DNA from: Alphaproteobacteria bacterium
GTDB lineage: Bacteria; Pseudomonadota; Alphaproteobacteria; Rhizobiales; Hyphomicrobiaceae
DNA length: 32,270 bases
Assembly (NCBI GenBank): GCA_022600345.1
Contig: JAHZKP010000155.1
Coordinates: 1 to 32,270, forward strand
Reading direction: 5' to 3'
The notes below the pieces were generated by a model that was not told where the DNA came from, did no database searches, and saw only the letters and a list, made by a program, of their open reading frames with translations. Positions 169-8,317 of this stretch are shown piece after piece. Position numbers and translations under genes: made by a program. The stretch's first letter is position 1. Every line of letters begins with the position of its first letter.

Positions 169-794
169 CTACTTTGGTGGCTCGTCTTTCTTACTCTTGA
201 GCTTGTTGTTCGACGTCAACCGATCCAGCGGGCTTGTCACCGTGCGCAGCGTGCTTGTCGCGACATGAGCGTAGCGCGCCGTCGTGTCGAGCTTGGCGTG
301 GCCGAGCAGGACCTGGATCACCCGCACATCGGTGTGGTTCTCCAACAGATGCGTCGCGAACGAATGGTGAAGCGTATGCGGGCTCAACCAGGAGCCGAGT
401 CCGGCAGCATCGGCAGCCCTGTGGCAGGCGCGATTGAGTTGCCGCGTCGTTATCGGCAGGAGCGGGTCGCGCCCTGGAAACAGCCAGCCCGGCGAGCGGC
501 ACTGAAGCCACCATGCGCGCAGCAACTCCAAGAGCTGCGGCGACAGCATCGCGTGGCGATCCTTGCGGCCCTTACCCATCTCTACTCGGATCAGCATGCG
601 CTTTGAATCGATGTCGCTAACGCGCAGCATGACAACCTCGCCGCCGCGAAGTCCGGCACCATAGGCGACGCTCAACGCCGCTTTGTACTTGAGCCCCGGC
701 CCTGGTGTAGCTTCGAGCAGGTGGCCAACGTCTTCAGGCGAAAGCACACGCGGCAGCTTCCTGGGATAGTGCGTGCGGGCCAGTTGGTTGGCGA
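169..794 (-). pseudogene. Tyrosine recombinase/integrase, 5' truncated at the CRISPR array
   Basis: About 208 residues resemble the catalytic half of the XerC/D-like recombinase that travels with IS91-type transposases. Visible motifs are GAGLRGGE (first catalytic Arg), GKGRKDRHAMLS, LLGHAKLDTTARY (box-II His and the Tyr nucleophile region) and the C-terminal SPLDRL. The homology starts exactly where CRISPR repeat 1 ends (position 794/795), so the N-terminal core-binding domain is missing; upstream in-frame codons come only from repeats and spacers. The canonical HTLRHSFATHLLE box reads HTLHHSFATHLLE (near 362-400), so the catalytic Arg of the HxxR motif is His. With truncation plus loss of a catalytic residue, the protein is very probably inactive. 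Confidence 0.8.
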
Positions 795-1490
795 GGTCCG
801 GTCGGCCCGCGTCGCGATCTCTGCTATGATTCCCTCGTCGTAGATCCCCTTTTCTCCTGGGTTCCGGTCGGCCCGCGTCGCGATCTCTGCTATGATTTTG
901 CCCGGCAACACCAGCGGGATGCAAGCGTTCCGGTCGGCCCGTGTCGCGATCTCTGCTATGATGCGTCCGATCCGCGCGCTGTCTGCTACGCGGTTCCGGT
1001 CGGCCCGCGTCGCGATCTCTGCTATGATTATGCGTTCGCCAACCCGGCTCTCATCAGCGTTCCGGTCGGCCCGCGTCGCGATCTCTGCTATGATCAAATC
1101 CAGAACCGCAGCAACCTCAGCGCGGTTCCGGTCGGCCCGCGTCGCGATCTCTGCTATGATCACACGTTCGGTTATCGCGCCTTCATTCTCGTTCCGGTCG
1201 GCCCGCGTCGCGATCTCTGCTATGATCCGTTATAGCGGGGTTCCTTGTACCCTGTAGTTCCGGTCGGCCCGCGTCGCGATCTCTGCTATGATCCGCCAAT
1301 CTTGCTGCCATCGAACTTGCCGGTTCCGGTCGGCCCGCGTCGCGATCTCTGCTATGATGTGTCATCGTATAAGGGTGGGCTCCTAGATGTTCCGGTCGGC
1401 CCGCGTCGCGATCTCTGCTATGATCACTTAAAGCGCGAGACCTTCCGCGCGTGTGTTCCGGTCGGCCCGCGTCGCGATCTCTGCTATGAT
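795..1490 (+). CRISPR. Type II-C CRISPR array: 11 repeats of 36 bp, 10 spacers of 30 nt
   Basis: Repeats begin at 795, 861, 927, 993, 1059, 1125, 1191, 1257, 1323, 1389 and 1455, a strict 66-bp period. The unit starts GTTCCGGTCGG and ends ATCTCTGCTATGAT. Repeat 1 differs at base 2 (G for T) and repeat 3 carries one C-to-T change; the others are identical. All ten spacers are 30 nt and different from each other, and I found no match to the rest of the window by eye. Three signs give plus-strand transcription: the tracrRNA anti-repeat is complementary to the plus-strand repeat, each repeat ends in an extended -10 element, and a terminator follows repeat 11. The cas genes lie on the opposite strand. 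Because the period is divisible by three, several long but meaningless reading frames cross the array. Confidence 0.97.
1455..1490 (+). promoter_or_regulatory. Repeat-embedded extended -10 promoter (representative; present in all 11 repeats)
   Basis: The last nine bases of each repeat are TGCTATGAT, matching the extended -10 consensus TGnTATAAT except for one base. In Neisseria meningitidis and Campylobacter jejuni type II-C arrays, promoters at the 3' end of each repeat start transcription within the following spacer. By analogy, each spacer here would have its own start site about 7 nt inside it. No good -35 is visible, which is usual for extended -10 promoters. This is inference from sequence and precedent. 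Confidence 0.6.
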
Positions 1491-1492
1491 AG

Positions 1493-1528
1493 GCTCTCTG
1501 CAACCCATTGGTTGCGGAGAGCTTTTTT
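1493..1528 (+). terminator. Rho-independent terminator of the CRISPR array transcript
   Basis: A 13-bp stem (1493-1505 with 1510-1522, one G-U pair) and a CATT loop are followed by six T residues on the plus strand. It begins 2 bp after the last repeat, so it ends plus-strand array transcription before the cas genes encoded on the other strand. Confidence 0.9.
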
Positions 1529-1592
1529 ATGATTCGCGCGGAAAAAAATGGCGTTTCGGCGATGTTGTCGGGAGCTCGTCATGCCGTTTTCC

Positions 1593-1606
1593 TGAGACCG
1601 GTCTCA
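1593..1606. repeat. 14-bp perfect palindrome over the cas2 stop codon
   Basis: TGAGACCGGTCTCA is a perfect inverted repeat whose last three bases (1604-1606) are the complement of the cas2 TGA stop. It has no T-run after it on the minus strand, so it is a weak candidate terminator for the cas operon. It could instead be a protein-binding site or be accidental. Confidence 0.4.
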
Positions 1607-1948
1607 AAATAATTGGAGTTGGTCCGGCTGCCTTGAGCGCTTGACCAAAGTGCTACCGCGGTAGGTCTTGATCATACCGTATTGCTTGTCAGTGATGAAC
1701 AGAATGTCCACCTTGCCGCCTACAGGGATTTTACCGCCAATTCGCTGAGCGATCGCTTCGGCCTGTTCTTTGCTGCTGGCATGCCGGATATAGCATGAAA
1801 GCTGCATCATCATGAAGCCCTCGTCGAGCAGCAGGTTTCGGAAACCCGTTGCCTCCTTGCGTTCCGCCTTGGTCAGGACCGGGAGGTCAAACATCGCCAT
1901 CATCCACATCGATTGATATCCTGAACGTGCCTTATATCTCGGAGGCAT
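1604..1948 (-). CDS. cas2: CRISPR-associated endoribonuclease Cas2
   Basis: Cas2 joins Cas1 in the spacer-integration complex, where it is mainly structural. The 114-aa product has the Cas2 core: a first beta strand MMAMFDLPV carrying the conserved Asp, LLDEGFMMMQLSCYIRHA, and VDILFITDKQYGMI. Its length is normal for type II Cas2. I chose the ATG at 1948 over one at 1987 because GGAGCAGGAG lies just upstream and because the longer form would only add residues overlapping cas1. The gene overlaps the 3' end of cas1 by 17 bp, so translation is probably coupled. It is last in the cas9-cas1-cas2 operon and its stop lies about 75 bp from the array terminator. Confidence 0.93.
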   Translation of the reverse strand: MPPRYKARSGYQSMWMMAMFDLPVLTKAERKEATGFRNLLLDEGFMMMQLSCYIRHASSKEQAEAIAQRIGGKIPVGGKVDILFITDKQYGMIKTYRGSTLVKRSRQPDQLQLF

Positions 1949-2879
1949 CTCCTGCTCCAATCGCCAGCCTGGCGGCGGCGTCTTCATGCAATGGCAAAGG
2001 CGAGAGCGGGAACATCAGGTCGCGGCGTTCGCCCAGGTAGACCTGTGCCAGCGACTGGGCACACCGAACGAGTACGGTCGACAGGGTCGAAACGCCTGCG
2101 TCTGTTTCGTAATCGGAGTGGAGCACGGCTGCGAGGCGCCGCTTGATTGCAGGAGTCAGTTCGATAACGTCCTCGTCGCGCAGCTCCTTTACGATAACGT
2201 CGACAGCGGGACGGAACGGCTCCATGAGATCGTCGGCGAGCCTCAGGCTGTTGCCCGCGCTCTTGTGGTGGAGACTGAGAGAGGGATGCAGCCCCGCCGC
2301 CACGATAGCGCGGGCGGTCGATGCCCTGAGAACCGTATAGCCGTAGTTGAGAAAGACGTTTGTCCCGTCAGCGGAGCGGTCGCGACGGAAATCCGAGCCA
2401 AAGAGCGCCGGCCAGTACTTTTGGGCGGCTTGCGCTTCGATGTTGTCGGGGTCACCGGAGCGAACCCTCCGGGCAAGCGTTTCAAGGACCAGCGGCGAGC
2501 CTGAAAACTCGGCCAGTGCGGCTGCCTGCGATCGGACCTTTGCCTTGACGATCTGTGCCCACACGCGTTTGGCGGTTGGTCGGGCGGCTGCCGCCTGGGC
2601 CTCGAAACGCGTACCTTGGGCATAGTGTCCGCTGAGTGGCAACAGGACGGCTGCCGGCTCGAAACGCGGCGAGCATATGACGAGCGGTGCCCCGTGCTCG
2701 GCCAGCGCGGCGATTAATTGGTTGGAGTAGGTGAGCGCGGGCGTCGAGGCTATCACGGCCTCAATGTCATCTAAAGGGACGTCGCCGACATGTCCGTCAG
2801 CGTTGTCGACCCGCAGAAGCCCCCGGTAGAGCGACAGGCGCTGACCAGGATTTGAGATTTCGACGATTTGCCCGAGCAT
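1932..2879 (-). CDS. cas1: CRISPR-associated endonuclease Cas1 (type II)
   Basis: Cas1 is the metal-dependent integrase that inserts new spacers. The 315-aa product starts MLGQIVEISNPGQRLSLYRG. It contains DDIEAVIAS and TYSNQLIAALAEHGAPLVIC in the N-terminal domain, and YGYTVLRASTARAIVAAGL followed by LADDLMEPFRPAVD in the helical catalytic domain, where Glu, His and Asp residues coordinate the metal (the Glu/Asp-containing LADDLMEPFRP stretch is visible). GGAGG lies 6 nt before the ATG at 2879, which fixes the start; an upstream in-frame ATG at 2915 lacks such a site. Cas9 ends 72 bp upstream in the same orientation, consistent with one operon. Confidence 0.95.
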   Translation of the reverse strand: MLGQIVEISNPGQRLSLYRGLLRVDNADGHVGDVPLDDIEAVIASTPALTYSNQLIAALAEHGAPLVICSPRFEPAAVLLPLSGHYAQGTRFEAQAAAARPTAKRVWAQIVKAKVRSQAAALAEFSGSPLVLETLARRVRSGDPDNIEAQAAQKYWPALFGSDFRRDRSADGTNVFLNYGYTVLRASTARAIVAAGLHPSLSLHHKSAGNSLRLADDLMEPFRPAVDVIVKELRDEDVIELTPAIKRRLAAVLHSDYETDAGVSTLSTVLVRCAQSLAQVYLGERRDLMFPLSPLPLHEDAAARLAIGAGDASEI

Positions 2880-2951
2880 GAGTGCCTCCGTTTGACGAAG
2901 GTAGCGCCAATGCACGCGTATATGAATCTCGGGTCGCGGAAGCGTTAATGT

Positions 2952-5900
2952 TCAATCTATGTTCGAATTTTTCGCAAGAACCTTCCCAAGTATGTCGACG
3001 TGAACGAGACGAGCGTTGTTTTTGCGCAAAACTTCAAAACTTCGGAACATCCAATTGAATTCGCCGGCCGTTTTGCGTTTATCGAGTTGTCCGCCTTCGA
3101 AGTGTTCAGCAAGCCTTAGGCGTTTACTACTAATCTCAAGTCGGTGTACTGACATCAGCTTTCGTTTGCCGTTGTGATCGAGCTCGATAACATCGCCCTT
3201 GTGAACGCGCATGACGAGTTTTCCGCCCATTTTCTCCCGTTCCCAGACTGGTCGCCAGCCCTTCTGGTTGACCTCGAAGAGGGTGGCGGCGAACCCTTTC
3301 CACTTCCCATCGCGCATCTGCACGATGTCGATGTGATGGTTTTCGCCAGGGATTAGCGCCTTGTAGACCGCACCGGTTGTCCTGTTCGCGACCGGTATGA
3401 AGTCATTCAGGACCTTGCCAATGCGCACACGGCGCACGCCCTGCTCGCGACCGTGGACACCTTGTGTCTGGGAAAAGTCCTCTAGCGCGGCCTTGAAGTC
3501 CTTTTCGTTGTCCTTGCTCACCTTACCCTTGTCGTCGCGGTATGGTGCGACGATGGCCTGCAGCTCGGCGCGCAGGACGCGATCACGGATGCTGTCGACC
3601 TCTTTGGCTGACAAATTTGTTAGCGGCTTGCGCGTCACGAGATTTCCGATTTCGCCGGCCTCGGCAGAGCCGCGCACGAAACCGTAGGCCGTTTCTTCGT
3701 GCAGGGCACCGCCTTTGCCATGATCGGGCTTGCGGGAGACAATGACCTGCCGGATCAGCTTCTTGGCGGTCTCGGCGTATTCTGGGAACGGTTCTTCAGG
3801 GGCTGCATCGGTGATGCGCCAATCGCGGCCTTCGCCTTCGAACTGGCCCGCGCGTCGCGACACCTCGTTCAGAAGCGGCCGGTCAATGGCGCCAACGACA
3901 ATGGCGTCAATCGCGTGGTGGCGGTGGTCATCGCGCACCTTGCGAGCCGGTTCGTCATCAGGCTGGTTGTCGCCCCTGAGGATCGCGTTCAGCCCCCACC
4001 GGCGTCGCAGCATGGCAGTAAGATGGCCGGTCGTCACGTAGACGTTGCCCTTGCCGGCGATGACGGTCAAATAGGCGCGCGCCAGCTTTGAAATGTAGCG
4101 CGTCTCGTTGAGCTGGCGCGCTGCAAAACCCCGCTCCTCGTTTTCGAATCGCTCCATAGCATCTTCGGCAAAGCGCCAGCGCTTGTTGGGCGGCAGTAAT
4201 CGCGCGCGGGCCTCGATCTCGGCCCAGTTGTCCTGACCGCCGAAAGCTTCGTGTGGAGACAGCGTGCGCTTTTCGCGATTGGCCTCGCGAAGGCAGACAA
4301 CCTTGTTGGCTGGGCTATCGTCGAGAGTGCGCGAATACGGAAGGATGTGGTCGATTTCTACCCTGTCGGACAGGACATCCTCCCGCACAATCGGTTTGAG
4401 GCTGTATGGGCATAGTGCGATTCCGTCGCCAGCGCGGGCCTGTTCGTCGTACAATCGGAGGCGCAGGAGTGCATCTGCGTTTATCTGCTTACCTGCCTTT
4501 TCCAGCTCCGATCTGCGGGCATCATTGGCATCTCGGTTCTTCTTGTTGGTCCTGCGGTGCTCAGCCTTCTGCTTTTCGCCGAGTTTCAGGTCTCGCGCCA
4601 CCTCGATAACGATCTGCGCCGGTCGGCCATGTCTGCGGATTAACGCGTTGACTAGCTTCTGCAGTTGCCTGAGGCAGCGATGGACGGTCGGATTGGCGAT
4701 GCGCCCATAATGCGCTTCGTAGGGGTCATCACCTGGTGCGTCGGTCCCAGGTAAGACCTGGCGATCCAAAACCTGGGCGTAATAGGGCAGGAATTCGCGC
4801 GGCTCTGGATTGTCGATATCTGAATGATGCCACGTCTCGCCGCGTGCATCACCCGCGCGCTTTACAGCTTCGCTGTACGTAGGGACGTCGGGTGCCATTA
4901 GTTGGGCGAGAACAGCAGCGTTCGCGGTCGCTCCAAGGCGCGCGGTGCCGACTCGAAACGATAGGCACGCAACTTTTTGGGCAGCGTCGGGCGGCAGTTT
5001 CAACTCGGAGTGAAGCCACTCGCGGATCGCGTCGTCGTCGTCTTCGCCGATGAGCTTCCAGACGATTGCGTCCTTCTCTGCCAGTGAGAGGTCATGCCAT
5101 GCGGCACCGAAGGCGCCGTCAGCCGCAAGTTTTTTTGCTGACTCTGCCACGTAGTCTTTAAGACCGTTGACTTCTCCTGCGGCTATCTGGAACCGAACAT
5201 CTGCAGGAGCGCCTGCAGATTTTCGCAATTGCGCTTCGGTTACGTTTTTGCCCTCCAGCAAGCGCTTTACGATCTCGTCGCGCTGCGGGGGCGTCAGCTG
5301 GGTGTTGACCCTCACGCCGACGCCGAACCGCAAGTTGTTCACCGCCTCATATATGATCCGGGCCTCGACACTCGGCAGCGCTTTCGGCAGCCGCTCTTGG
5401 GTGGAGATGAAGGTGCACTTGCCACGTTTCGGCGCCTTCAGTGGGCGCTGGTGGAACATCTCGCCCCGCAAAAGTGAGATGCGTTCATCAGTCAGTTGTC
5501 GGTCATGATGCTGTTGCTGGTTCGCCATGATCGCATCGAACTCGGCCTCCAGCATTGCCCGCATCGGGTAAAACGCATAAAGCTCCTCTCGCCCTTCGCC
5601 TTCGAGACGAATACGCACGGATTGCCGCGTACGCGGTGTCGCCTTGCCGTCCGGGCCACTATGACGCTTCCACAGAAATTCGCCAAACGTGCGTGCACCG
5701 GCTTTGTCTATTTTCTTCGCCAGTCGTTCGGCAGCTGAGGCAATCTTTCCCTTTTCTTTGTCGTCGTCCGGATCGGTCTTGCGGTTCGACTTGAAGCCAC
5801 GGCGTTGATTGAGGTGGATCAATATGCGGCCGATTTCGTGCGGCCCAAGTTTACGATCCAGCGCTTCGGCTCGCAGACGATAGGGGTCGAGATCGATGAG

Positions 5901-6209
5901 TGCCGACCGCGCCTTATGGTCGGTTGGAAGTAAATCGAAACCGATCAACATTTGCATCAGACGCTTGCGGCGCATCAAGAAGCGATCGCGGCGGCGGCGC
6001 GCCCCGCGCGGACCTCTTCGCTTTTCACCGAGCGGCTTTTCGTCCTTTGGATCGCGGCTATCGTCGAAAATTCGTACGCCGCAGTCGATCAACCCCGTTG
6101 CACCAGAACTTGCGCCTGTATCGTCAACGGTGAGGACCGCCCAGCCAATGGAGTTGGTTCCAAGATCGAAGGCAAAGCGCAACCTTCGCGCTGTCGAAGT
6201 AAATTGCAT
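2952..6209 (-). CDS. cas9: CRISPR-associated endonuclease Cas9, type II-C
   Basis: Cas9 is the crRNA/tracrRNA-guided double-strand DNA endonuclease. The product is 1085 aa, typical of the compact II-C group. RuvC-I is FAFDLGTNSIGWAVL with D15. An Arg-rich bridge helix spans about residues 60-85 (GEKRRGPRGARRRRDRF). RuvC-II is IVIEVARDLK with E536. HNH is EIDHILPYSRTLDDS with D620/H621 and Asn about 644. RuvC-III is HHAIDAIVVGAID with H765 and D768. The last ~250 residues form the PAM-interacting/wedge region. All catalytic residues are present, so I infer an active nuclease. The ATG at 6209 is preferred because GGAAGGGG sits 3-5 nt upstream; a GTG at 6230 would add seven residues. It heads cas9-cas1-cas2 and is divergent from the tracrRNA. 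The PAM cannot be read from the sequence. Confidence 0.97.
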   Translation of the reverse strand: MQFTSTARRLRFAFDLGTNSIGWAVLTVDDTGASSGATGLIDCGVRIFDDSRDPKDEKPLGEKRRGPRGARRRRDRFLMRRKRLMQMLIGFDLLPTDHKARSALIDLDPYRLRAEALDRKLGPHEIGRILIHLNQRRGFKSNRKTDPDDDKEKGKIASAAERLAKKIDKAGARTFGEFLWKRHSGPDGKATPRTRQSVRIRLEGEGREELYAFYPMRAMLEAEFDAIMANQQQHHDRQLTDERISLLRGEMFHQRPLKAPKRGKCTFISTQERLPKALPSVEARIIYEAVNNLRFGVGVRVNTQLTPPQRDEIVKRLLEGKNVTEAQLRKSAGAPADVRFQIAAGEVNGLKDYVAESAKKLAADGAFGAAWHDLSLAEKDAIVWKLIGEDDDDAIREWLHSELKLPPDAAQKVACLSFRVGTARLGATANAAVLAQLMAPDVPTYSEAVKRAGDARGETWHHSDIDNPEPREFLPYYAQVLDRQVLPGTDAPGDDPYEAHYGRIANPTVHRCLRQLQKLVNALIRRHGRPAQIVIEVARDLKLGEKQKAEHRRTNKKNRDANDARRSELEKAGKQINADALLRLRLYDEQARAGDGIALCPYSLKPIVREDVLSDRVEIDHILPYSRTLDDSPANKVVCLREANREKRTLSPHEAFGGQDNWAEIEARARLLPPNKRWRFAEDAMERFENEERGFAARQLNETRYISKLARAYLTVIAGKGNVYVTTGHLTAMLRRRWGLNAILRGDNQPDDEPARKVRDDHRHHAIDAIVVGAIDRPLLNEVSRRAGQFEGEGRDWRITDAAPEEPFPEYAETAKKLIRQVIVSRKPDHGKGGALHEETAYGFVRGSAEAGEIGNLVTRKPLTNLSAKEVDSIRDRVLRAELQAIVAPYRDDKGKVSKDNEKDFKAALEDFSQTQGVHGREQGVRRVRIGKVLNDFIPVANRTTGAVYKALIPGENHHIDIVQMRDGKWKGFAATLFEVNQKGWRPVWEREKMGGKLVMRVHKGDVIELDHNGKRKLMSVHRLEISSKRLRLAEHFEGGQLDKRKTAGEFNWMFRSFEVLRKNNARLVHVDILGKVLAKNSNID

Positions 6210-6250
6210 AGGCCCCTTCCAAAAATTCACCGTCGGTTGAGACGCTAGCA

Positions 6251-6266
6251 GATTGCGCTTGCAATC
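6251..6266. promoter_or_regulatory. Short inverted repeat between cas9 and tracrRNA
   Basis: GATTGC-GCTT-GCAATC is a perfect 6-bp inverted repeat in the 86-bp divergent region between the cas9 start (6209) and the tracrRNA. Its position would suit a shared operator, but nothing else supports this. Confidence 0.3.
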
Positions 6267-6287
6267 CGAACACAGATGATGTTCTCA

Positions 6288-6293
6288 TATAGT
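6288..6293 (+). promoter_or_regulatory. Putative -10 element of the tracrRNA promoter
   Basis: TATAGT (5 of 6 matches to TATAAT) lies directly before the anti-repeat, placing a start near 6300. No -35 with standard spacing is convincing: the nearest, TTGCAA at 6259-6264, is 23 bp away. Confidence 0.4.
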
Positions 6294-6295
6294 TT

Positions 6296-6384
6296 CATAG
6301 CAGAGATCGCGGCGTGGGCTCTCCGATAACAAGGCTTATGCCACGAGATTCAAAGGGTAGGCTCCGGTCTGCCCTTTATCATTT
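6296..6384 (+). ncRNA. tracrRNA of the type II-C system
   Basis: The anti-repeat (6296-6330) begins CATAGCAGAGATCGCG and pairs with the plus-strand repeat over 24 bp with two G-U wobbles. After an internal loop, the end (CGATAAC) pairs again with the GTT..CGG start of the repeat. Such a bulged duplex is what Cas9 and RNase III recognise. Downstream is a nexus-like hairpin GGC-TTAT-GCC (6333-6342), then a 9-bp hairpin (6352-6360 with 6369-6377) followed by ATCATTT as a weak terminator. Cas9 needs this RNA to bind and mature crRNA. It lies upstream of and divergent from cas9. The 5' end is uncertain by a few bases, and the molecule may start inside the anti-repeat. Confidence 0.9.
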
Positions 6385-6645: not shown

Positions 6646-8317
6646 GAGGCTGTGTGAGAACGCGCTGTTGCGCAACCCTGGACAATGTTCGGACCTGTCG
6701 ATGCAAATCCGGCCCTCATGAGCAGTTTTCGGCTCCGATCGTCGCCGTGACTCGCCCAACGGACGACCTGTTTGTGTTTTTTGGCGCTGTAGGCATCACC
6801 GTCATCCCTTCATCGCGTTAATCAGCCCCGGTACGCCAAGTATCGCGATCACCCGCATCATGTTGTAGACCAGCACATGCAGCGCCGTTTCGGTTGCTAC
6901 GTGCTTCAGCGTCTTCATTTTGAAGTGCGTTGCACCCATCCAGGCTTTGATCGTGCCAAATGGATGCTCGACGGTCCTGCTGCGCAGCGGGATCTTATCG
7001 GGATCATCGTCAAGACGTTTTTGGACGCGCTCCAGGATATCCTCGTGTTTCCAGCGACGGATGCGGCGCTCCTTGCCGGTTGTACATCTGTGCTTGACCA
7101 CGCAGGTCACACAGTCGTTTGTCCAGTAATTGCGAAGCGTCTTGCCATCCTGCTTGTTCGTGTAGTGATAGGGGAGCCATTTACCGGCCGGGCACTGGTA
7201 GGCATCCTTCTTGGTGTCATAGACGAAGTCGGCCCTGTCAAAACGCCCAACCGCCGCTGCTTTGGAAGTGCGCGGTTTGGAAACCGTGACGGCAATGCCG
7301 GCCTGCTCACAGGCAACGATCTCCTCGCCTTTATAGTATCCCTTGTCGGCGATCGCTTCGATCGTATCGCCAGCCATCTCGTCCCGCGCTTTGTGCGCCA
7401 TCATCGAAAGGGCATCGCGGTCATAGCCGTGGTTCGTCACTTCGTGTGCGATGATCAGATGGTGCTTGGTTTCGACAGCGCTCTGCACGTTGTAACCGAC
7501 CACGCGGGGCTGCTTGCTTGTCGTCGCCATGGCGCGACAGTCCGGGTCGGTTAGAGAAACTTGCGTCTCGCCGGTACTGTCCATGCGTTGCTCTATGGCG
7601 CGCAGCGTTCGTGCCTCCTTGCGGTAATGAGCGAGCTTCTTGAGAACGCGTGATAGTCGGGCTTCCACTGGATACATGCCGGTCGTTGTCAGAACTTCAT
7701 CTGTCCGATCCAACTCACCCATGTACCGATCGATCGCAGCGTCAATCTCTCCAAGGCGACGTTTGAGCTTCTCGCGCGTGTAGTTCTTAGCTTTGGCATT
7801 GACGGCTTTGAACTTGCTCCCGTCGATAGCGACGAGGCTCGCGTCCAGAAGATCGATATCGCGGCAAAGCGCAATGAATTGCCGGCAGACTTCGCGGATC
7901 GCGGCGCCATTGTCGCGCCGAAAATCGGCAATCGTCTTGAAGTCGGGCTTCAGCCGACCCATCAGCCAGATCAGTTCCAGGTTGCGACCGCATTCACGTT
8001 CCAGTTTCCGCGACGACTGAACTTGGTTGAGATAACCGTAGAGATACAGCTTCAACATCGTCGCCGGATGATAGCCTGGACGCCCGGTATCCTCGGGCTC
8101 GACGTTGAAGCCGAGCGCCGCCAGATCCAGCATGTCGACAAACGCATCGACTGCGCGAACCGGATTGTCCCCGTCGACATAGTCATCAATGCATTCCGGC
8201 AGCAGACTGGTCTGGCTTCGATCCAGCCCCTCGATGAAACGTCTCATGAGAGCCCCCGCTTGTAGCAAGGGAATCATATCATGTTTCACTCAGCCACCGG
8301 CGTTTTCACACAGGCTC
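6646..8317 (-). mobile_element. IS1182-family insertion sequence, complete
   Basis: The element is about 1672 bp and contains one transposase gene. Its ends are 18-bp imperfect inverted repeats: GAGGCTGTGTGAGAACGC (6646-6663) and the complement of GAGCCTGTGTGAAAACGC (8300-8317), matching at 16 of 18 positions. The flanks TCTT and TCTC differ at one base, so no clear target duplication is visible. It lies between the CRISPR-Cas locus and the phage remnant. Confidence 0.85.
6802..8247 (-). CDS. IS1182-family transposase
   Basis: A DDE transposase that cuts and rejoins the ends of its own element. The 481-aa product begins MRRFIEGLDRSQTSLLPE, the typical start of this family. The N-terminal helical domain is followed by the catalytic core: VAIDGSKFKAVN (first Asp), IADKGYYKGEE (second Asp) and TVEHPFGTIKAWMG (Glu), with a Cys-containing insert CVTCVVKHRC before the last motif. 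The frame is intact and full length, so the copy could be active. The ATG at 8247 is preceded by a GGGGG run; an alternative start at 8289 adds 14 residues without family similarity. Confidence 0.93.
   Translation of the reverse strand: MRRFIEGLDRSQTSLLPECIDDYVDGDNPVRAVDAFVDMLDLAALGFNVEPEDTGRPGYHPATMLKLYLYGYLNQVQSSRKLERECGRNLELIWLMGRLKPDFKTIADFRRDNGAAIREVCRQFIALCRDIDLLDASLVAIDGSKFKAVNAKAKNYTREKLKRRLGEIDAAIDRYMGELDRTDEVLTTTGMYPVEARLSRVLKKLAHYRKEARTLRAIEQRMDSTGETQVSLTDPDCRAMATTSKQPRVVGYNVQSAVETKHHLIIAHEVTNHGYDRDALSMMAHKARDEMAGDTIEAIADKGYYKGEEIVACEQAGIAVTVSKPRTSKAAAVGRFDRADFVYDTKKDAYQCPAGKWLPYHYTNKQDGKTLRNYWTNDCVTCVVKHRCTTGKERRIRRWKHEDILERVQKRLDDDPDKIPLRSRTVEHPFGTIKAWMGATHFKMKTLKHVATETALHVLVYNMMRVIAILGVPGLINAMKG

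Follow-up and report, generated by a model that had tools for sequence, protein, structure and literature searches.

A predicted, divergently encoded tracrRNA gene in an alphaproteobacterial type II-C CRISPR-Cas9 locus, and candidate natural single guides among its relatives

Introduction

In type II CRISPR systems, a tracrRNA base-pairs through its anti-repeat with the repeat portion of the pre-crRNA, the resulting duplex is cleaved by RNase III, and the nexus and terminal hairpin of the tracrRNA dock in Cas9. The window analyzed here, a stretch of 32,270 nucleotides that is one contig (C44) of a 4.09-Mb assembly judged 99.88% complete, carries upstream of a cas9 gene a short plus-strand segment that appears to be such an anti-repeat. 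Two questions arise from this arrangement: whether the segment belongs to the tracrRNA of the adjacent locus or is left over from a decayed one, and whether the DNA between cas9 and tracrRNA, here or in related loci, might encode a natural single guide directed at cas9 itself. The first is answered for the window, with a probability of roughly 0.96, by a tracrRNA gene at 6295-6384 (plus strand) of a type II-C locus in which cas9, cas1 and cas2 are open and an array is present. The second concerns relatives of the window rather than the window.

Results

The CRISPR-Cas9 locus

The three cas genes lie on the minus strand: cas9, open and 1085 aa long, at 2952-6209 (TIGR01865, E 4.7e-185), cas1 at 1932-2915 (TIGR03639, type II Cas1, E 6.7e-72) and cas2 at 1604-1987 (TIGR01573, E 2.5e-12). 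The ATG of cas9 is at 6209, with GGAAGGGG immediately before it. Residues D15, H621 and N644 and the motif DHRHHAID at 761-768 fall in invariant columns of an alignment of 15 Cas9 proteins (A3), and we take their roles to be catalytic. The cas genes together occupy 1604-6209, and the flanking open reading frames that were scanned are an integrase and an IS1182 transposase; across the operon and these flanking frames, the rest of the window having been scanned in part, the cas9-cas1-cas2 order without csn2 or cas4 is that of type II-C. The phage-type integrase frame (169-924, minus strand) has a nearly full-length match to the catalytic domain and a 5' end that runs into the array, and the IS1182-family transposase gene (6802-8289) lies past the tracrRNA.

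In the CRISPR array (795-1490, plus strand), 11 copies of a 36-nt repeat are separated by 10 spacers, each 30 nt long. Nine of the 11 repeat copies are identical, with the sequence GTTCCGGTCGGCCCGCGTCGCGATCTCTGCTATGAT, and the first copy, at 795, is changed at its second base. Each repeat closes with TGCTATGAT, which resembles an extended -10 element, and individual crRNAs may therefore begin within each spacer; promoters inside II-C repeats are cited in the portion of PMC10281378 consulted. A terminator-like hairpin of 15 bp with a T-run (1491-1530, plus strand; fold -25.7 kcal/mol) abuts the last repeat. With this hairpin at the last repeat and the change in the first, new spacers may be integrating at the 3' end of the array as it is transcribed. 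Comparison of the array with phage and plasmid records found no match, and hence gave no PAM for the window's Cas9. The window's cas9 was found in none of eight other genomes of the genus, which marks the locus as accessory and is a point against the tracrRNA reading given below.

Complementarity of the anti-repeat to its own locus's repeat

The anti-repeat lies at 6295-6330 on the plus strand and, as in type II-C tracrRNAs, is complementary to the repeat of its own locus, pairing with 32 of its 36 bases at a duplex energy of -60.2 kcal/mol. The initial annotation, made from the sequence alone, had described a plus-strand segment nearly complementary to the repeat that pairs again at its end, and this description holds, although the details differ: the duplex consists of 26 continuous pairs, a 2x2 internal loop, three pairs, a 1x2 loop and three closing pairs, and so contains two loops rather than the one described, and a count by hand gives three G-U pairs, one of them at a helix end, rather than two. 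The next independent place in the window reaches -43.0 kcal/mol, against a background with mean -22.5 and s.d. 5.2 over 6293 windows of 46 nt (10-nt steps on both strands, the array excluded and the anti-repeat's own windows included). Because the plus-strand anti-repeat pairs with repeats read from the plus strand, tracrRNA and crRNAs would both be read opposite to the cas genes.

The 17-mer TCATAGCAGAGATCGCG, searched through the 4.09-Mb assembly with three mismatches allowed, occurs without mismatch only at the 11 repeats and at 6295, and its best other place, a single one, has two mismatches. A better anti-repeat elsewhere in the genome, which would have spoken against the assignment, was thus looked for in the assembly and not found, and the model R1 described below matches this genome once, at the tracrRNA. 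One feature of the lower stem counts against the tracrRNA reading: by eye, one pair seems lost in the window, CCGATAAC there corresponding to CCGGTAAC in locus L072. We also considered whether the anti-repeat preserves a cas9 promoter, its minus strand keeping the repeat's -10-like TGCTATGA, and dropped this idea because many relatives, by eye, have lost that end.

Covarying hairpins and the length of the RNA

Directly after the anti-repeat stands the nexus hairpin GGC-TTAT-GCC (6333-6342), followed by a linker, ACGAGATTC (6343-6351; ACCAGAT in many relatives in alignment A1), and a terminal hairpin, AAAGGGTAGGC-TCCG-GTCTGCCCTTT (6352-6377), all on the plus strand. The nexus had been noted at the outset and is borne out by covariation in relatives. 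A single terminal hairpin had been noted as well and is present, with 11 pairs, two of them G-U, instead of the nine first counted, around a UCCG loop. The terminator-like 3' hairpin is conserved, and the U-tract that follows it is weak in the window, where it is broken (ATCATTT).

Alignment A1 comprises 25 loci, the window included, that have the TAACAA motif and the hairpins; for a few of them the automatic choice of hairpin was wrong, and nexus and terminal hairpin were set by eye. TAACAA and the CGG at the loop are among its invariant columns. Over the nexus and terminal hairpin, 96.0% of cells are paired and 11 of 13 pairs show double changes; the two outer nexus pairs covary and are standard in all cells, and nine of the 11 terminal pairs change on both sides. 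The covariation score is 0.816, as against 0.178-0.249 when the pairing is slid and a mean of 0.278 when it is shuffled, and both hairpins covary strongly. With the start fixed in every locus at 36 nt ahead of the UAAC motif and the end taken as that of the hairpin, the window's RNA is 83 nt long, exactly the median of the 25 loci (range 79-109). The impression that the predicted RNA of about 85-90 nt is unusually short and poor in stem-loops is therefore not sustained. No Rfam family reached its gathering score, which counts against the tracrRNA reading.

Conserved place and divergent orientation in relatives

When Cas9 was searched for, 33 of 297 genomes of the order and four of 103 of the family had a match, the window's own counted, and the DNA surrounding most of these matches was extracted. 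Among the 24 loci whose repeat was read, an anti-repeat lies upstream of cas9 on the other strand in 21, although in six of these 21 it is the second-scoring place, outscored by another repeat-like copy. The remaining three loci lack DNA upstream of cas9 or lack the cas9 start.

A model, R1, was built from the 25 loci, the window among its rows. In the window's genome it has a single match, at 6325-6381 (E 2e-7, for a sequence that is itself a model row). Across the order, 32 of 297 genomes carry an R1 match, 26 of them at E < 1e-5; of these 26, 22 are model rows, the other four being G072, G107, G181 and G227, and all except G227 have a Cas9 match. The lack of any R1 match in eight of the 33 Cas9-bearing genomes of the order counts against the tracrRNA reading. 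In the family, six of 102 genomes match, two of them weakly and without cas9, and in the class 29 of 385 match, the window included; at that level, 26 of 29 other loci have a cas9 start on the opposite strand within 1.5 kb and three have none. From a named collection, searched with an alignment, the best 80 of 513 Cas9 loci were fetched, and R1 matches 73 of these 80 at E up to 0.1 (65 at 0.001), divergent from cas9 in 72 of the 73; twelve of the 72 repeat loci of earlier samples, four of these twelve being model rows. The divergence of tracrRNA (plus strand) from cas9 (minus strand), as first described, is thus a layout conserved in relatives.

Some loci depart from this layout. L193 of Limoniibacter endophyticus (1215-1270) has the only same-strand match among the 73 from the best 80 of 513. 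L097 (G227:C17) has a strong match at about 8855 with neither cas9 nor array in 17 kb, an orphan or a relic. L107 and L129 (G428:C9) are tracrRNA matches separated by 371 bp that seem to lie next to a single cas9. Loci dropped from analysis were L027 (motif without hairpins, by eye), L051, L067, L070 and L076-L080 (no motif or no upstream DNA), L105, L123, L126, L084 and L143-L145 (no cas9), L146 (wrong motif), L112 and L118 (motif not found), L193 (same strand) and the seven of the 80 without a match.

Promoter, and the possibility of a relic

A weak candidate promoter may lie at 6259-6293 (plus strand), with TTGCAA at 6259-6264 as -35 and either TCTCAT (6283-6288) or TATAGT (6288-6293) as -10. 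By eye, their position roughly corresponds to that of CTTGAC and a -10 box in many relatives. The best match to the sigma-70 consensus within 6230-6300 (9 of 12 positions) is a different pair, TTGAGA at 6237 with TGCAAT at 6260, from which a longer RNA could start further upstream. It is unlikely that the RNA comes mainly from there, as the CTTGAC of many relatives, read by eye, puts the start at or just before the anti-repeat, and the window has its TTGCAA in that place.

The window's -10 box and U-tract look weaker than those of many relatives, which counts against the tracrRNA reading and would suit an anti-repeat that is merely a relic beside a decayed locus. Relics do exist, as the G227 tracrRNA with no cas9 or array in 17 kb illustrates. 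Such a fate is very improbable here, where cas9, cas1 and cas2 are all open and nine of the 11 repeats have stayed identical. An anti-repeat, covarying hairpins, divergent matches in relatives and a normal length together point to a type II-C tracrRNA.

Predicted folding of the free tracrRNA

In the predicted fold of the free RNA, GGCGUGGGCU in the anti-repeat forms a 10-bp helix with GGCUUAUGCC (6305-6353), and the nexus has a probability of 0.00, rising to 1.00 once the anti-repeat is taken. Free tracrRNA might thus act as a switch, in which the anti-repeat folds onto the nexus and pairing with crRNA frees it, so that Cas9 would be loaded only with a guide. The window's nexus arms pair with the anti-repeat at 0.99, whereas dinucleotide-shuffled anti-repeats average 0.27 (one of 120 as high); in 14 of the 25 loci, among them the window, the nexus is lost in the free RNA (P <= 0.15) and restored (P >= 0.8) once the anti-repeat is occupied; and the native mean of 0.61 exceeds the 0.38 obtained with exchanged anti-repeats. 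Nevertheless, only eight of the 25 loci individually reach 5% in the shuffle test, five keep the nexus when free, and another five lose it without regaining 0.8. Foreign anti-repeats placed on the window's nexus average 0.63 against the native 0.99, with 14% of 22 as high, and short nexus stems compete easily with any long strand. We regard the switch as unlikely.

Candidate natural single guides in related loci

In 13 of 127 type II-C loci (131 before four further duplicates were removed), a sense copy of the repeat lies between cas9 and the tracrRNA, and the 10-13 nt just 5' of the copy are found again near the start of cas9. On one and the same strand, the guide is followed by the repeat copy and then by the anti-repeat. 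A long form of the tracrRNA in these loci would probably guide Cas9 to the start of its own cas9 gene, for autorepression without cleavage in the manner of tracr-L. The loci are L174, L178, L182, L186, L190 and L203, from the named collection, with seeds of 11-13 nt, and L057, L060, L062, L064, L065, L066 and L073, with seeds of 10-12 nt. L186 belongs to Aquamicrobium sp. LC103.

A diverged sense copy within the 110 nt before the anti-repeat outscores all 300 shuffles in L060, L061, L064, L066 and L073, and in L057 four of 300 shuffles do as well; in this search the reversed anti-repeat took the place of the repeat for L064 and L066, and the L066 alignment is gapped. By eye, the copy in L060 and L061 seems to cover the tracrRNA's own promoter (TTGACC or TTGACG as -35, TATCCT as -10). 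Dinucleotide shuffles of the same regions gave such a seed match in 0 to 3 of 2000, and none of 462 pairings of a guide with a foreign region reached 8 nt. The seed idea was then tried on loci fetched afterwards. Among 20 regions drawn from an other-order sample (in which R1 matched 16 of 346 genomes), a few plasmid records and three older loci, L130 alone has a match at the repeat copy, of 8 nt with AGG.

Over the full set, 57 of the 127 loci have a copy-like start pairing with their own anti-repeat. In 11 of these 57, a seed of at least 10 nt ends exactly at the copy start; shifting the end by 3, 6 or 9 nt leaves 1 to 4 such loci. L060 and L064 failed this automatic rule and were added from the earlier seed and shuffle results, bringing 11 to 13. 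Pairing thresholds varied slightly between the seed searches. The spacer between cas9 and tracrRNA is at least 200 nt in 37 of the 127 loci, and all 13 guide loci are among these. In 10 of the 13 loci the seed recurs 87-239 nt upstream of the point where the Cas9 match begins; in L065, L178 and L190 it recurs within 24 nt of that point, at or adjoining the start codon. Cas9 matches can begin as far as about 45 nt into the gene. Long seed matches are also present in L215, L164, L223 and L220 but, by eye, none of them ends at a GTTGC-like copy start, and they were left uncounted.

Where the seed recurs near cas9, the three bases that follow it read GGG in L057, L060, L062, L073, L174, L178 and L190, AGG in L064, L066 and L203, TGG in L186, GGA in L065 and AAA in L182. 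NGG therefore follows the seed in 11 of 13 loci, while GG occurs at 551 of 9396 steps (5.9%) of these regions. Three observations count against the guide reading. Three more loci with 9-nt seeds (L104, L116 and L212) have no NGG. None of the guide loci, except perhaps L073, shows a conspicuous strong promoter for a long form. Finally, pairing of the copy with its own anti-repeat varies in the minimum-energy fold of the stretch from guide to terminator: it takes up 20-24 of 24 bases in L203, L057, L174, L190 and L178, 9-16 in L066, L065, L186 and L062, and 0-6 in L182, L073, L060 and L064.

The window itself has none of these marks. Its spacer between cas9 and tracrRNA is short, at 85 nt; there is no sense repeat copy 5' of the anti-repeat, 261 of 300 shuffles scoring as high as the best candidate; no seed of at least 6 nt occurs at the two best pairing places shown; and the last 9 nt of none of the 10 array spacers recur in 6209-6335. 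The sense copy and the seed of about 11 nt next to a PAM near cas9 that characterize tracr-L are both lacking in the window.

Discussion

The feature in the window is best described as an ordinary tracrRNA of a known kind, a well-supported assignment in which location, orientation and covariation agree. Its direct basis is complementarity to the repeat, covarying hairpins, uniqueness in the genome, and a conserved place and divergent orientation in relatives. From these we infer the promoter, transcript ends, processing and Cas9 binding. Transcription of the tracrRNA would proceed away from cas9, along the strand that also encodes the crRNAs; the anti-repeat would pair with the repeat portion of the pre-crRNA; host RNase III would presumably cut the duplex; and the nexus and terminal hairpin would hold the crRNA:tracrRNA pair in Cas9.

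The closest named relative found is the II-C locus of Rhodovulum sp. PH10 (L214), whose Cas9 is 48% identical to the window's, G322 (53%) and G087 (51%) being closer. Like the window, L214 has a divergent tracrRNA within 100 nt of the cas9 match and a similar anti-repeat core (GGCGTGGCCTCTCCG against GGCGTGGGCTCTCCG); it differs in its nexus, GGCACATGCC, and its lower stem, GTTAAC against GATAAC. A similar layout is described, in the part of PMC10281378 consulted, for the EH CRISPR-Cas9 system (II-C, clade IX) and for Sulfitobacter donghicola Cas9, both with the cas9-cas1-cas2-array order and 36-bp repeats. In the EH system, moreover, a tracrRNA gene about 100 bp long lies upstream of cas9, the array is proposed to run in the same direction as the tracrRNA, and the sgRNA, as in the window's tracrRNA, has an anti-repeat followed by two stem-loops (PMC10281378). 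The sequences are different, and the likeness is one of layout rather than a comparison of Cas9 proteins. The EH system has been tested, with a working sgRNA, promoters proposed within the array's repeats and a measured EHCas9 PAM of NGG (PMC10281378), the same motif that follows the seeds in 11 of the 13 relatives. As excerpted, PMC7606464 gives sgRNAs of clade V only two hairpins and those of clades III, VI and IX, the last being that of EHCas9, longer and more complex forms.

The precedent for the candidate guides is tracr-L of the Streptococcus pyogenes II-A system, a natural single guide whose 11-nt match adjacent to the PAM brings about repression of the cas promoter (PMC11417352, PMC8616872, both in part); a 9-bp match is given in the excerpt of PMC8730458. 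The 13 relatives resemble tracr-L in the same-strand order of guide, copy and anti-repeat, in a seed near cas9, and in NGG in 11 of 13; they differ in belonging to type II-C and in that the long form and the repression are predictions from sequence. The relevant part of a 2021 review states that tracr-L is absent from other subtypes (PMC8616872), and among the matches listed in the openly licensed literature, judged by title and the start of the abstract, none describes a type II-C tracr-L. The scaRNA of the Neisseria meningitidis II-C system acts on mRNA, with no complex with cas9 in gel shifts, according to the section of PMC13431127 consulted. The natural single guides of the relatives are a computational result that is likely real, and the window is without them.

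The window supplies a repeat, a tracrRNA and a 1085-aa Cas9, the set required for constructing and testing a new compact Cas9. Among the relatives, distinct guides that each match their own cas9 region would show selection. If the guide reading is true, PAMs (here NGG) would be readable from genome sequence alone, and self-repression by a natural single guide would not be peculiar to type II-A.
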